Of a DNA stretch of 64,000 bases, positions 39,848 through 45,396 are shown piece by piece. The notes under the pieces were generated by a model that ran no database searches, was not told the origin of the DNA, and was given only the letters and a program-made list of their open reading frames with translations. The DNA lies in the NCBI RefSeq assembly GCF_021502575.1, contig NZ_JAKFGN010000001.1, forward strand, positions 2,356,001 to 2,420,000, written 5' to 3'. Origin of the DNA: Bradyrhizobium sp. G127 (GTDB lineage Bacteria > Pseudomonadota > Alphaproteobacteria > Rhizobiales > Xanthobacteraceae). The position numbers and the translations under genes were made by a program. Within the stretch, counting starts at the first letter, position 1; every line of letters begins with the position of its first letter.

Positions 39848-42322
39848 CTACTGCGACGTATTGAACGAACTGGCGCCAATGGTGCGCAGGCCGATTTGCA
39901 GCATGATACGGTGATCGGTAACCGGACTGGTGTAGCTCGCCGAGGTATAGGCGTAATCGGTGATGTAGTTCGCTGCAATGATGAAGCAGTCGTCCACATA
40001 CCCCGCACCCACGATGTACTGATTGATCGTTTGATTGGTGATGTCGTAGCGCAGCGCGCCCGACAGCACCCAGTTGGTGGCTACCTTGACCGATCCGGTC
40101 GCCACGATGCCTTCGCGGCGTGTGAGGAAGCCGAGCTCTGGCTGCGCGTCATAGTTGCCATAGAGCAGGCTCACGCCGAAACGGTCGAAGTTGGCCCTGC
40201 CTTCGAGTTCGAAGCGCCGCACGACCCCCGTTGCCTCGTCGAGCCGGGTGCGGGCGATCAGGCTGTAGATCCTGTTCGGCTGATAGGCGATACGCGCGAC
40301 GTAATCGGAGCGGTTCTTGTCGAGACCGCTGCCGAGGCTGGTATTGGTCAGATCCTGCATAGCGAAGGAATTCAGGCCGAACAACTGGTAAGATTGTCCG
40401 AACAGCACGTTGATGAAGCCGCCGCGGTCGAACTGCGTCGTCGCCTGAACGCCGACATTGGCCCTGCCGCCGCCTTCCACGCGGTCGTAGCCGGAGAATT
40501 TGTCGACACTGAAGAGATTGCTGTCGTCGAAGGTAAAGCTCTGCGCATCTTCGTTGGGCAGACGGCCTGCGCTGGGTTCATTGGGTCGGATAATCAACTG
40601 GCCGATCGGCTCAATTGTCGTGGTGCCCCACGGCTGCACGTTGATGAACGGATAGCGGTATTCGACACCGACTGTCGGCATAAGGCGCGCAGTCTGCGTG
40701 GAGCCGACCGGCAGGTAGTTGGCAACGCCGGGCTGATTGTCGATGTTGGCGCTGATCAGGTCTCCGCGCAGCGACGCGAACGGCGTGAAGATCTGGCCGA
40801 TGGAGTCGGTGAATGACCGCCGCCATGAGACCTCCGCGGTCAGCCGTGTGTAGTCGCCCGGAATACCGCGCAGCAGGCAATTCGCGGGAGTCTTGACGGC
40901 GGAGTTTGCGCTCGGCAGGCACGATCCGGCAAGCAGCGCAGTCGGGTTGATGGCATCGAACGACGCCGTCTGGCGGCTCAAGCTGGTGAAGTTCGCCTTG
41001 TAGCTGAATTCGCCACCCAGCACGTTGCGGTTGAGCACGTTCGAATAATCGATCACGGGGTGAACGATCGGAATCTGGCTCTGGTCGTCCGCCGCCGAGT
41101 AGCCAAGGAAGTGCATCACCCGGGCGTCGAAATAGCTGCGGTTGCCGACGCCGGTCAGGTAAATCTGCGAGAGACCCGTATCGGGGGTCAGCAGGAAAGC
41201 ATTGAGCGCGTTTTTGTAAGGACCGAGATTGTAGTCGTAGAAGAACGACTTGTCCGAGACTGCAACCGCATCCCAGCCCCAGACCCATTTGTCGTTCAGT
41301 GCAAACTGGCCTTTGGTATCAATGCCTCCGCGGAATTCGCGATCGCCGGGCTCGGCGTTGAACTGCCCCTGATCGTTCTGCCGGATGCCGTAGCCGCGGA
41401 TTTCGTAAGCGCCGTTGAGGAGGCGCTGGCGGAATTCGCCCTGCAGCAGCAGGCCCTGCTTGGTGGTGTAGCGCGGCGTCACTGTTGCGTCGTAGTCCGG
41501 AGCCAGCGCGAAGTAGTAGGGCACTTCGAGGCCGACACCGTAGCGCGTGCTGGAGGAGTAGTTCGGAATCAAAAAGCCGCTCTTGCGCTTGACCGTCGGG
41601 TCAGGCGTCGAGAAGTATGGCAGGAATGCAATCGGCTGACCGAAGAATTCCAGCCGCGCATCCTCGAAGTACAGCATCTTCTCGGTCTGGTTGTGAATGA
41701 TGCGCGCGCCCTTGACCTGCCACAGCGGCGGCTTCTTCGGATTGTCTTTACAGGCCGCGCAGGCGGTATAGACGCCGTTCTGGAAGACCGTGACGTCGCC
41801 GTTGGTGCGATCCGCGCGCGTCGCCGCCATGCGGGTCTGGTCCGCGGTGTCCAGCCGCAGTGAATCGACAAAGCCGTCGCGATAGTCGTCGGACAGGTCG
41901 AGCATGTTGGCGTAGGTGATCTTGCCGTCGGAATCGGTCAACCGGACGTTGCCTTCGGCATGGAGGCGCTTGGTCTTCTGGTCGTAGATGACCTTGTCAG
42001 CTTCCAGCGTCGCTCCGTGGAAATAGATCTGGACACTGCCGACCGCTGCGACACGAGAGTTGTTGTAGTCGTAATTGACCTCGGTCGCCTGCACGAGCAT
42101 CTGCCCGTCACTGCTCGGAGGACGTGCCGGCTTCGGCGGTCTCGGGGGCAGGGGGTTGTAGCGGTAAGATTGCTGTGCTGCGGCCGGCGTGGTCACCGCG
42201 TCGCCCAGCCCAACTGACAGGCAAAGTCCCAGAACGGCAGACATGACGAAGCTTTGACGGCGCAAGCGAATGCGCCGCCTGAACGCAGGCGTCCGTCCTT
42301 GGAGGGCGGCGACAACGGCCAC
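39848..42322 (-). CDS. lptD: LPS-assembly protein LptD
   Basis: 824 residues. I chose the GTG at 42320-42322, whose G is shared with the lptG stop (TAGTG), with AGGAGG upstream; longer readings intrude on lptG. A signal sequence (ending PAAAQ) precedes an OstA/LptA-like jellyroll (MLVQATEVNYDYNNSRVAAVG, LEADKVIYDQKTKRLHAEGNVRLTD) and a large C-terminal barrel domain with many aromatic strands. Cys pairs (CAAC near 200; two more further on) are candidates for the LptD disulfides. It inserts LPS into the outer leaflet. Confidence 0.95.
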   Translation of the reverse strand: MAVVAALQGRTPAFRRRIRLRRQSFVMSAVLGLCLSVGLGDAVTTPAAAQQSYRYNPLPPRPPKPARPPSSDGQMLVQATEVNYDYNNSRVAAVGSVQIYFHGATLEADKVIYDQKTKRLHAEGNVRLTDSDGKITYANMLDLSDDYRDGFVDSLRLDTADQTRMAATRADRTNGDVTVFQNGVYTACAACKDNPKKPPLWQVKGARIIHNQTEKMLYFEDARLEFFGQPIAFLPYFSTPDPTVKRKSGFLIPNYSSSTRYGVGLEVPYYFALAPDYDATVTPRYTTKQGLLLQGEFRQRLLNGAYEIRGYGIRQNDQGQFNAEPGDREFRGGIDTKGQFALNDKWVWGWDAVAVSDKSFFYDYNLGPYKNALNAFLLTPDTGLSQIYLTGVGNRSYFDARVMHFLGYSAADDQSQIPIVHPVIDYSNVLNRNVLGGEFSYKANFTSLSRQTASFDAINPTALLAGSCLPSANSAVKTPANCLLRGIPGDYTRLTAEVSWRRSFTDSIGQIFTPFASLRGDLISANIDNQPGVANYLPVGSTQTARLMPTVGVEYRYPFINVQPWGTTTIEPIGQLIIRPNEPSAGRLPNEDAQSFTFDDSNLFSVDKFSGYDRVEGGGRANVGVQATTQFDRGGFINVLFGQSYQLFGLNSFAMQDLTNTSLGSGLDKNRSDYVARIAYQPNRIYSLIARTRLDEATGVVRRFELEGRANFDRFGVSLLYGNYDAQPELGFLTRREGIVATGSVKVATNWVLSGALRYDITNQTINQYIVGAGYVDDCFIIAANYITDYAYTSASYTSPVTDHRIMLQIGLRTIGASSFNTSQ

Positions 42323-43410
42323 TACCCGTCCTCCTGGTACAGCAAGGCTAGAAATCCCGAGAGGCCGCCCACGCAGACGGGCAGCCACGCGGCAGCGAGC
42401 GGATGCATCAACTCGGCCTTGCTCAAATCATCGGTTACTTTCGACAGGACATAGAGCAGAAACCCTGCTGCAACGCCACTTAAAACCATCTTTTGCACGC
42501 CGCCGAAGCGGAAGAAGCGCAGGCTTACAGCGGCCGCGAGCAGCACCATTGCGGCCAGCAAAAACGGGCGCGCGATCAGTTTCTGGTACTGGAGGCGGTA
42601 ACCGGCTGTGGCCTGTCCCGAGTTCTCGGACGATTTGATGTAATCCGGGAGTTGCCAAAATGACACAGTTTCTGGGGTGGAGAAGCTGTTGCGTACCTGA
42701 GCCAGGGTGAGAGTGGTGCTGAGCGTCCAGGTGTCTTCCTCGACCACCGGGCTTTCGAGCTTGTAACGCCGGACCCCCTTGAAGACCCATCGGCCGGGCT
42801 CAAGGGCGGCTTCCCTGGCCTCAATTCTCTCTCGGAAAGTCCCCGACGAGTCGTAGCGGAACACGGTCATGCCGGTCAGCAGGGTGCCTTGTCCCTGACT
42901 GCGGGCGGCATTGATGATACTTTGCCCCTCGCTGGTCGACTGGTTGATCCAGAAACCTGCGCCCTCCTGAACACTCGGTGTTCCGTCGGTGAAGATCTTG
43001 GTTTCCATTCCCTTCGCGCGTTCCAGCATGTCCGCCGTCACCGGATTGTAGACGGCGGTTGCGAGCGCGCCGAGCACAAGCGCGCTGATGAGAGCGGGCG
43101 CGGTGAACTGCCAAGCAGAGATACCGGCAGCCCGCGCGATCACCAGTTCGAGCCGGCGCGACAAAGCGAGGAACGAGACCATCGCGCCGATCATGATGCA
43201 GAACGGCATCAGCTTTTCGAGCGTCAGCGGAACACGGAACAGGGCGGTTTGCGCGACGAACAGGCCCGACACATTCGGCAGGCTGCTCGCGCGGCGCATC
43301 AGTTCGATATAATCGACAGTGATCACGAGAAAGAAGATCGCCGCGAAAGTCGCGAGTGACGCGATCACGAAACGTGCGGCGAAATAGCGGGCGAGAATCG
43401 TCGTTACCAT
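42322..43410 (-). CDS. lptG: LPS export permease LptG
   Basis: 362 residues from the ATG at 43408-43410. YjgP/YjgQ family: two or three N-terminal helices (VIASLATFAAIFFLVITVDYIEL), a periplasmic beta-jellyroll segment, and three C-terminal helices. Conserved P-x-x-L-x-x-F and R-R-L-E-L region before TM3 (ALSRRLELVIARAAGISAWQF). LptG pairs with LptF and LptB2 in the inner-membrane ABC transporter. Its usual partner lptF is not present upstream; only a 32-codon remnant lies there. Confidence 0.94.
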   Translation of the reverse strand: MVTTILARYFAARFVIASLATFAAIFFLVITVDYIELMRRASSLPNVSGLFVAQTALFRVPLTLEKLMPFCIMIGAMVSFLALSRRLELVIARAAGISAWQFTAPALISALVLGALATAVYNPVTADMLERAKGMETKIFTDGTPSVQEGAGFWINQSTSEGQSIINAARSQGQGTLLTGMTVFRYDSSGTFRERIEAREAALEPGRWVFKGVRRYKLESPVVEEDTWTLSTTLTLAQVRNSFSTPETVSFWQLPDYIKSSENSGQATAGYRLQYQKLIARPFLLAAMVLLAAAVSLRFFRFGGVQKMVLSGVAAGFLLYVLSKVTDDLSKAELMHPLAAAWLPVCVGGLSGFLALLYQEDG

Positions 43411-43423
43411 ACGCGTGACTGCC

Positions 43424-43522
43424 TCATGCCGCGGCCAGCCGCCGGCCCCGCCGTGCGGACGCAAAAACCCCGGCGGACGGCCGCGCAGCCGTCCGTAGAA
43501 CACTGGTGTCGATCGACCCCAT
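43424..43522 (-). pseudogene. lptF: Putative lptF remnant (32-codon fusion of its ends)
   Basis: An ATG at 43520-43522 opens a frame MGSIDTSVLRTAARPSAGVF that ends ASARRGRRLAAA then TGA, 13 bases before the lptG start. LptF of related bacteria begins with MGSID (from memory), stands exactly here between pepA and lptG, and has a basic Ala/Arg-rich C-terminus. The simplest reading is an internal deletion of about 1.1 kb that joined the N-terminal dozen codons to the last score (inference). A perfect 8-bp hairpin at 43474-43495 lies inside it, near the possible junction. It could instead be an unrelated small frame or an assembly error. Confidence 0.5.
43474..43495. repeat. Hairpin within the lptF remnant, T-run on the minus side
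   Basis: CGGACGGC (43474-43481) and GCCGTCCG (43488-43495) around CGCGCA. On the minus strand it is followed after CCGGGG by TTTTT, so it also resembles a weak terminator or attenuator ahead of lptG. Confidence 0.5.
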
Positions 43523-43893
43523 CAGGCAGTGATATCCCCAAACTCCAGCCGGTTTAGGCCTTTTGCCCAGATCTCTCGCGAGATCCCCCAAGGGCAGCGG
43601 GCCGATATTCCCGGTACATTCTTATTTCATAGCATCCCTTTGATCGGTCAACAAAATGGCTGACCTGAGGCTGAGCGCAAAGTGTGGTTAATAAAACATT
43701 TGACGTGGCTTTCCGGCCACGCGATTCACGCTCAATCCGGCCGCACCGGGGACATGCTTGCCACGAAGCCAGTGCGCTTGGCAGCGCCTTCGGGAAAGCG
43801 CCATAGTGGGTTATCTCATGTCCCGAATCCGAAATTCCTGCTGGATTCGGGTCCCTTGGCTGCGCAAGCCGCGATGATTTGGAGGATTTGCTT
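43523..43893. other. Intergenic region upstream of pepA and the lptG run
   Basis: About 370 bases between the divergent units. It contains a small GTGGC/GCCAC hairpin (43706-43720) and no convincing gene. In relatives a complete lptF would occupy part of this space. Promoters for pepA and lptGD must lie here, but I cannot name them with confidence. Confidence 0.4.
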
Positions 43894-45396
43894 ATGACCG
43901 ACGCCGTCAAGGTCGGCTTCGTACCGTTTTCCGCTGCCCCCCGCGGCGTTCTGGTGGTGTTTTGCGACGACACGCTGAAATTCGGCCCGGCAACGGGAAA
44001 GGCGCTCGGGGCAACCGCCTCCGCCGTGAAGCGAGCGGCCATCGCCAACCAGTTCAAGGGGAAAAGCGGTGCGGCACTGGATATTCTGGCGCCGGAAGGG
44101 CTCAAGGCGGGACGCTTGATCGTCATCGGCGTGGGCAAGCTCGCTGCGCTCAAGGACAGCGACTACATCAAGTTCGGCGGCAAGATCGCGGCCAAGATTT
44201 CAGCCGGCACCGAAGCGGTCACAATTCTCGCAGAACTTCCGTCGGGTGCGATGAAGGGATCGCAGGCGGCTGCGATTGCAACCGGTGTCCGTCTGCGGAC
44301 GTATCGATTCGACCGCTATAAAACAAAGAAGAAGGACGGCGACAACGCGCCGCTGCGTGCGCAGTTCTCGGTCGCGGTGGCGGACGTCGCCGCCGCGCGC
44401 AAGGCCTTCGGCCCCGAGAATCACATTGTGGACGGCGTGCTGATCGCGCGCGAGCTCGTCAACGAGCCGCCGAATGTGCTGTTTCCTGCGGAGTTCGCGC
44501 GGCGTGCGACGCAATTGCGGAAGCTCGGCGTCCGCGTCGAGGTACTCGACGTTCCGGCCATGAAGAAACTGGGCATGGGCGCACTGCTCGGCGTCTCTCA
44601 GGGATCGGAGCATGACGGCCGCACTGTCATCATGCGCTGGAACGGCGGCAAGGCGGGTGAGCAGCCCATCGCATTCGTCGGCAAGGGTGTGTGTTTCGAC
44701 ACAGGCGGCATTTCGATCAAGCCTGCCGGCAGTATGGAAGACATGAAGGGTGACATGGGTGGCGCGGCCTGCGTCGTCGGCCTGATGCACGCGCTCGCCG
44801 CCCGCAAAGCCAAGGTCAACGTCGTCGGCGCGATCGGTCTCGTGGAGAACATGCCGGACGGCAACGCACAGCGCCCCGGCGACATCGTGACCTCGATGTC
44901 GGGACAGACCATCGAAATCATCAACACCGACGCCGAAGGCCGGCTCGTGCTGGCCGATGTGCTCTGGTACGTGGCGAAGAAGCACAAGCCCAGGTTCATG
45001 GTCGATCTGGCCACGCTCACAGGTGCGATTCTGGTCGCACTCGGCGTCGAATATGCAGGCATGTTCTCCAACAACGACACGCTTGCGGAGCGCCTGACCG
45101 CTGCCGGGCAGGAGACCGGCGAGCGGGTGTGGCGGATGCCGCTCGGTCCCGAATATGACAAGCAGATCGACTCGCAGTTCGCCGACATGAAGAACACCGG
45201 CAGCCGCAATGGTGGTTCGATCACTGCCGCGCAGTTCCTGCAACGCTTTGTCGACGACACGCCTTGGGCGCATCTCGACATCGCGGGTACGGCGATGGGC
45301 GTTCCCGCATCGGACCTCAGCCGCAGTTGGGGCTCGGGCTATGGCGTGCGCCTCCTCAACCGGCTGGTGGCGGACCATTACGAGGCGAAACGCTAA
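43894..45396 (+). CDS. pepA: Leucyl aminopeptidase
   Basis: 500 residues from ATG 43894 with a GGAGG site. The M17 signature [14 protein letters not shown] is intact, as are the metal and active-site regions [15 protein letters not shown] and MKGDMGGAA. It trims N-terminal residues as a hexamer with two metals per subunit. It is followed by holC, as in many proteobacteria. Confidence 0.97.

Follow-up and report, generated by a model that had tools for sequence, protein, structure and literature searches.

Clade-wide displacement of lptF in Afipia, with an operon stump kept upstream of lptG

LptF and LptG (YjgP and YjgQ) are the paired permeases of a transporter, LptB2FG, that is usually essential, and their genes lie side by side in most relatives of the organism considered here. 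PMC8871954 describes these genes as grouped in the Proteobacteria under the name lptFG. The locus analysed below belongs to a window of 64,000 nucleotides, by which we mean the whole stretch of DNA from Bradyrhizobium sp. G127, a genome that is counted here among 29 genomes of Afipia. Like other LptB2FG systems, this genome encodes both permeases at full length and above the curated cut-offs of their models (TIGR04407 and TIGR04408, PF03739); unlike them, it carries lptF and lptG on different contigs, and its native lptF has shrunk to 32 codons. The finding is a clade-wide displacement of lptF that has left behind a kept operon stump, and the account that we regard as highly probable is that a second lptF located among polysaccharide genes took over, that the native lptF was cut down to a scar, and that the scar was kept as a leader frame.

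The pepA-lptG site and the remains of lptF

In the window, lptG (42322..43410, minus strand) encodes an intact protein of 362 amino acids that scores 285.5 bits with TIGR04408. Downstream of it lies an lptD-like frame (39848..42388, minus strand) with weak NCBIfam LptD matches, under the curated cut-offs, and upstream a spacer of 483 bases (43411-43893) separates it from the divergent neighbour pepA, which encodes leucyl aminopeptidase (43894..45396, plus strand). Among the open reading frames of the window, none of LptF size falls in this spacer. It does contain a frame of 32 codons (43424..43522, minus strand; translation MGSIDTSVLRTAARPSAGVFASARRGRRLAAA), hereafter the scar, whose stop codon is followed by a gap of 13 nt (43411..43423, minus strand) before the ATG of lptG; what we take to be the lptG ribosome-binding site starts inside that stop codon (tGAGGc). 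Immediately 5′ of the scar ATG stands the leader of the former lptF, TTTGGGGATATCACTGCCTG (43523..43542, minus strand), which is recognisable in relatives and was displayed for 26 loci without lptF.

The scar was identified by its translation, by a length and spacing common to 15 species, and by homology, for which pieces of it were slid ungapped along the 2.1 kb linked lptF-lptG locus of Afipia sp. Root123D2 (genome G004, locus L036, named record L133), our native reference. Its 5′ 53 nt, comprising the 20 nt leader and 11 codons, have their top fit exactly at the lptF start (40/53, with a runner-up place of 24). For the last 46 nt the top place is precisely the junction of the lptF stop and lptG (26/46, runner-up 23); mononucleotide shuffles reached neither 40/53 nor 26/46 in 20,000 trials. 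We read the 5′ match to native lptF as clear and the 3′ match as modest, and weak if it were taken alone. About 1.07 kb is absent from the scar relative to the native Root123D2 gene. These fits identify the 32-codon frame as both ends of lptF, brought together by loss of the interior, and the pepA-lptG site as a former place of lptF. An earlier note on this DNA had described a gap of about 480 bases without an LptF-sized frame, an intact lptG and, 13 bases before it, a tiny frame that looked like the two joined ends of lptF, and this description agrees with the spacer, with the position of the stop codon and with the place at which each end fits best.

No structured RNA matched Rfam at the gathering threshold in window positions 43300-44000, and a simple promoter and terminator scan of 43380-43920 predicted one promoter (shuffle mean 0.2) and one terminator (shuffle mean 0.7), neither of which falls at the scar. 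A terminator-like hairpin with a T tail is visible in the spacer between pepA and the scar (43703-43722, minus strand; one against a shuffle mean of 0.7), and elsewhere in the same spacer the block CAAAGGGATGCTATGAAATAAGAATGT is well kept across most species of clade A, the Afipia clade to which this genome belongs.

The displaced gene, in this genome and across the family

A genome search for PF03739 recovered two proteins, the LptG of the window and an intact protein of 384 amino acids encoded on another contig (G000:C2:446929-448083, minus strand; 245 bits with PF03739). The latter scores 264.5 bits with the LptF equivalog TIGR04407, for which the cut-off is 230, as against 102 bits with the LptG model, and its closest solved structures are LptF chains. 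LptC was also found (28.2 bits, cut-off 21). The earlier note had reported lptF as missing, which is true of the pepA-lptG site and untrue of the genome; it had itself allowed for another LptF elsewhere, and the genome search that it proposed found one. Its further suggestion, that the transporter might use a different kind of partner for LptG, is ruled out, since the displaced protein passes the LptF equivalog cut-off. What it did not foresee is that this LptF is of a separate lineage common to another genus, and that the remnant at the old site keeps its start, stop and length and leaves its peptide free. Because the inner-membrane Lpt proteins of a relative, Brucella abortus, include distinct, essential homologues, LptF among them (PMC9938171), the displaced copy would be expected to perform the LptF function.

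The surroundings of the displaced gene are those of a polysaccharide locus, as far as Pfam assigns functions to the neighbours: a divergent O-antigen ligase (Wzy_C) lies about 60 nt away, and on the other side an NAD epimerase follows directly, with a GDP-mannose dehydratase farther along beyond it. A block of plsX, fabH, ihfA, merR and tRNA-Pro is found on the same strand, about 21 kb off. Some 5 kb from the displaced lptF, at L070:13236-13829, a frame of 197 amino acids carries the arm DNA-binding domain known from phage-type integrases (PF13356, 54 bits), which hints at an island.

This arrangement is shared throughout the genus. Both proteins were found in 26 of the 29 Afipia genomes, and LptF alone was detected in three fragmentary ones (G006, G024 and G025, 84-85% complete). 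Of these 26 genomes, 25 have an empty pepA-lptG site and an lptF located apart from lptG; the sole genome with the standard order is Root123D2, and a native and a displaced LptF never occur together in any of the 26. The displacement of lptF is thus solid at the level of the clade. Among the 28 Afipia genomes with a displaced lptF, 19 have it downstream of the plsX-fabH-ihfA-merR block on the same strand (with the block inside the fetched flanks in 12 and 6-25 kb off in 7), and in the remaining nine either the fabH/ihfA/merR block is not visible on the contigs or lptF is elsewhere. One Afipia metagenome-assembled genome encodes, in addition to LptF and LptG, two more proteins of the LptF_LptG family, both divergent and next to each other (G019:C5:112206-114511, locus L068; 96 and 88 bits).

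Beyond Afipia the linked order is the rule, as the earlier note had held for relatives: lptF lies within 200 nt of lptG in 62 of 80 named loci, and of the other 18, 17 match an Afipia genome of this analysis exactly in the pepA-lptG spacer and the last is Bradyrhizobium sp. U87765 SZCCT0048 (L110). In the wider family the two genes are adjacent in 49/53 and 46/51 genomes in two counts made by eye, which exclude G137 (9% contamination, no match), and in 7/8 in a further one. The exceptions, with lptF apart from lptG, are genus g34 (5/5), genus g63 (3/3), and one sampled genome each of genera g45 (G073) and g5 (G032); loci L239-L244 and L218 represent the separated lptF of g34, g45 and g5. Of the neighbours of lptF in these genera that were run against Pfam, some are of polysaccharide type: glycosyltransferases and PMT-like enzymes in g63, a glycosyltransferase in g34, a Wzy_C ligase in g5 and, in g45, an ABC exporter similar to MsbA. 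Others, namely DNA glycosylases in g34 and a DUF2336 protein in g63, are not. A complete g63 genome encodes a third, divergent PF03739 protein (G091:C1:4902007-4903047, 101.6 bits).

Two possible histories for one displaced lineage

The history of LptF does not follow that of the organisms. A tree of nine proteins of the region, LptG and PepA included and with 13 of the 25 lptF-less Afipia genomes represented, supports Afipia (100), clade A (100) and a grouping of Root123D2 with clade B (100), and places g63 and L110 on a separate branch (100); on LptG and PepA alone, Afipia is not one clade, and clade A joins Bradyrhizobium and Rhodopseudomonas with a support of 76. In the LptF tree, by comparison, for which 17 of the 28 displaced Afipia LptFs were used, the displaced proteins of clade A, clade B and g63 are united with an ultrafast bootstrap (UFBoot) of 100 and the native Root123D2 protein falls outside. 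Approximately unbiased (AU) tests reject an LptF that follows the organism tree, both within Afipia (p 6e-8) and in a wider set (p 1e-39, or 6.6e-6 in a looser form). The Afipia-only test left out G029, G034, G036, L134, G033, G006, G024 and G025, and its two constraints yielded identical likelihoods, so that it counts as one test; the wider set omitted 12 distant rows (G029, G030, G031, G032, G034, G036, G062, G073, G099, G119, G136 and G156). Simple vertical descent of LptF is rejected. Because the displaced LptFs form one lineage, the native Root123D2 copy is excluded from it, and vertical descent fails, these trees argue that a second lptF lineage replaced the native gene, whether through duplication and differential loss or through transfer. 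For g34 and g45 the displaced proteins fall together in a clade of their own (100), so displacement probably happened more than once.

As to how the second lineage arose, one possibility that comes close to an even chance is that lptF left its operon in the Afipia lineage and was afterwards transferred horizontally among the Afipia clades and g63, each time replacing the native copy. The fully supported displaced clade would be expected from such a history, as would its position in the best tree, where it adjoins the native Afipia copy of Root123D2 (UFBoot 83) and where g63 goes with clade A (66). The displaced gene also sits in polysaccharide loci, a class of locus that is often exchanged. 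However, the AU test leaves the order of clade A, clade B and g63 free (0.36-0.65 for the three arrangements), and the neighbouring genes differ between Afipia and g63. In particular, the displaced lptF of g63 is not near fabH, which speaks against a single relocation, its surroundings either not having moved with it or having changed since.

A plausible alternative, on which we lean slightly towards doubt, is that lptF was duplicated before Afipia, g63 and the Bradyrhizobium-Rhodopseudomonas line split, and that g63 and both Afipia clades then lost the native copy, whereas the remaining lineages lost the other one. Conflict between the gene tree and the organism tree is what an ancient paralogue should produce, the AU test does not reject (p 0.11) a tree in which all native LptFs stand on one side and all displaced LptFs on the other, and the scars of clade A and clade B differ, as would fit separate losses of the native gene. 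Yet this history requires many parallel losses, it would have left no Afipia genome with both copies among the 26 that have LptF and LptG, and it sits poorly with the adjacency of the displaced clade to the Root123D2 protein. Under either history, the reading that we prefer remains one in which a second lptF would have replaced the native one.

The scar as a probable leader frame

Across 15 species of clade A, exactly 112 nt separate the old start from lptG, and the frame has 32 codons. In the other 10 lptF-less Afipia species (eight of clade B and two deep in clade A) the distance is 104, 122, 128, 134, 137 or 146 nt, and in L110 it is 116 nt; all of these lengths leave a remainder of 2 when divided by 3. 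In nine of these Afipia genomes the frame extends to +7 and in one to +4, overlapping the lptG start in each; in L110 it ends at -14. Since lptG starts ATG-N-TGA in most of these genomes, the stop at +7 comes free in that frame, and what carries information is the frame alone. A complete g63 genome (G133) likewise keeps a frame, starting MGSIDADNCRTTLAS, that ends 5 nt before lptG; no clear MGSID start remains at the other g63 sites or at the g34 sites.

Among the 15 species the scar has accumulated no indels against 221 substitutions, compared with 48 against 650 for the whole upstream spacer (Fisher 2e-6) and 14 against 188 for the 120 nt nearest upstream of it (p 2.5e-5 against the scar). 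Its stop codon has stayed a stop through five substitutions (8 TGA, 5 TAA and 2 TAG), with a neutral probability of 2e-4 to 1e-3, and its ATG is kept in all 15 (neutral probability 5e-5 to 1e-4); these values come from a neutral simulation at 2.12 to 2.32 changes per site, the observed figure being 2.27. Against a leader role, the scar ATG of one genome, G003, is changed to ACG. Start, stop and frame are thus conserved beyond neutral expectation over the 15 species, and more weakly so when the indel contrast is drawn on five independent species pairs alone (p 0.046). Substitutions fall equally on the three codon positions (62, 62 and 60), and the pN/pS of codons 6-32 is 1.09, so the peptide is free to change, and a conserved scar peptide is rejected. 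A look of constraint is confined to codons 2-5 (0.16; p 0.09 by Fisher's test on codon positions). In DNA as rich in GC as this, the mere openness of the frame is not significant (shuffle product 0.049 across seven lineages; neutral simulation 0.02-0.14).

This pattern suggests that the scar is maintained as a leader frame for lptG, and a leader role seems likely to us on comparative grounds; a coupling leader need not show selection at the protein level. We regard it as unlikely that the scar is instead decaying junk, that is, a neutral remnant of a deletion whose start, stop and length survive by chance or because they overlap a promoter, a transcript leader or the lptG ribosome-binding site. 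A peptide without conservation is what junk would show, open frames are to be expected in DNA of this composition, the length does vary (104-146 nt) in the eight clade-B and two deep clade-A species, most other g34 and g63 sites have lost a clear start, and the overlap of the likely ribosome-binding site with the stop codon could preserve the stop too. But a ribosome-binding site has no need of the T of the stop codon or of a distant ATG, and junk should not have gone so long without an indel or have held a stop through repeated substitution. It should not, moreover, have confined every other length to one remainder, with a frame running to +4, +7 or -14; and frames like the scar also persist in the separate lineages of clade B and g63.

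The sequence of events that we envisage begins with lptF in its standard position at the pepA-lptG site. A second lptF, amid O-antigen and other polysaccharide genes, would have taken over the LptF role in Afipia, and an internal deletion would have reduced the native gene to the scar. The LptG of the window would now pair with the displaced LptF in LptB2FG. As lptG presumably sits on the former lptF transcript, the scar may have been kept as a short translated leader in which start, frame and stop matter and the peptide does not, as its evolutionary pattern indicates, and which probably delivers ribosomes to lptG. We give an even chance to the broader proposition that the stump of an evicted lptF serves as a sequence-free leader keeping lptG translation coupled, and that LptF has become a mobile component of polysaccharide loci in three or more branches of the family (Afipia together with g63, g34 together with g45, and g5). 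The remaining suggestion of the earlier note, that the assembly dropped about 1.1 kb of lptF, is ruled out for the genus and has a negligible probability here, since 25 Afipia genomes, those of A. massiliensis DSM 17498, A. birgiae 34632 and A. clevelandensis ATCC 49720 among them, combine an empty site of this kind with a displaced gene.

For annotation, then, lptF is neither lost nor misassembled in this genome. More generally, one half of a permease pair appears to be replaceable by a diverged version from another locus while the other half stays put, which makes these genomes a natural experiment on the freedom with which LptF and LptG re-pair, and on whether operon stumps persist as leaders after gene loss. 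Translational-coupling leaders and upstream open reading frames are short frames that end before or overlap the next start, and their peptide sequence is of little importance. The scar resembles them in ending before or overlapping the lptG start and in the little weight of its peptide, and differs from them in its derivation from the two ends of a transporter gene. Among the literature matches listed, a body from which most subscription papers and all preprints fall outside, neither a displacement of lptF in Afipia nor an lptF stump acting as a leader was found. A parallel case, in which an essential function must come from elsewhere once its native gene is broken, is reported for tmk in Pseudomonas putida KT2440 (PMC10653934), where the question likewise becomes which other copy took over; here, by contrast, the native gene has gone by internal deletion across a clade, its two ends left behind as a constrained mini-frame.
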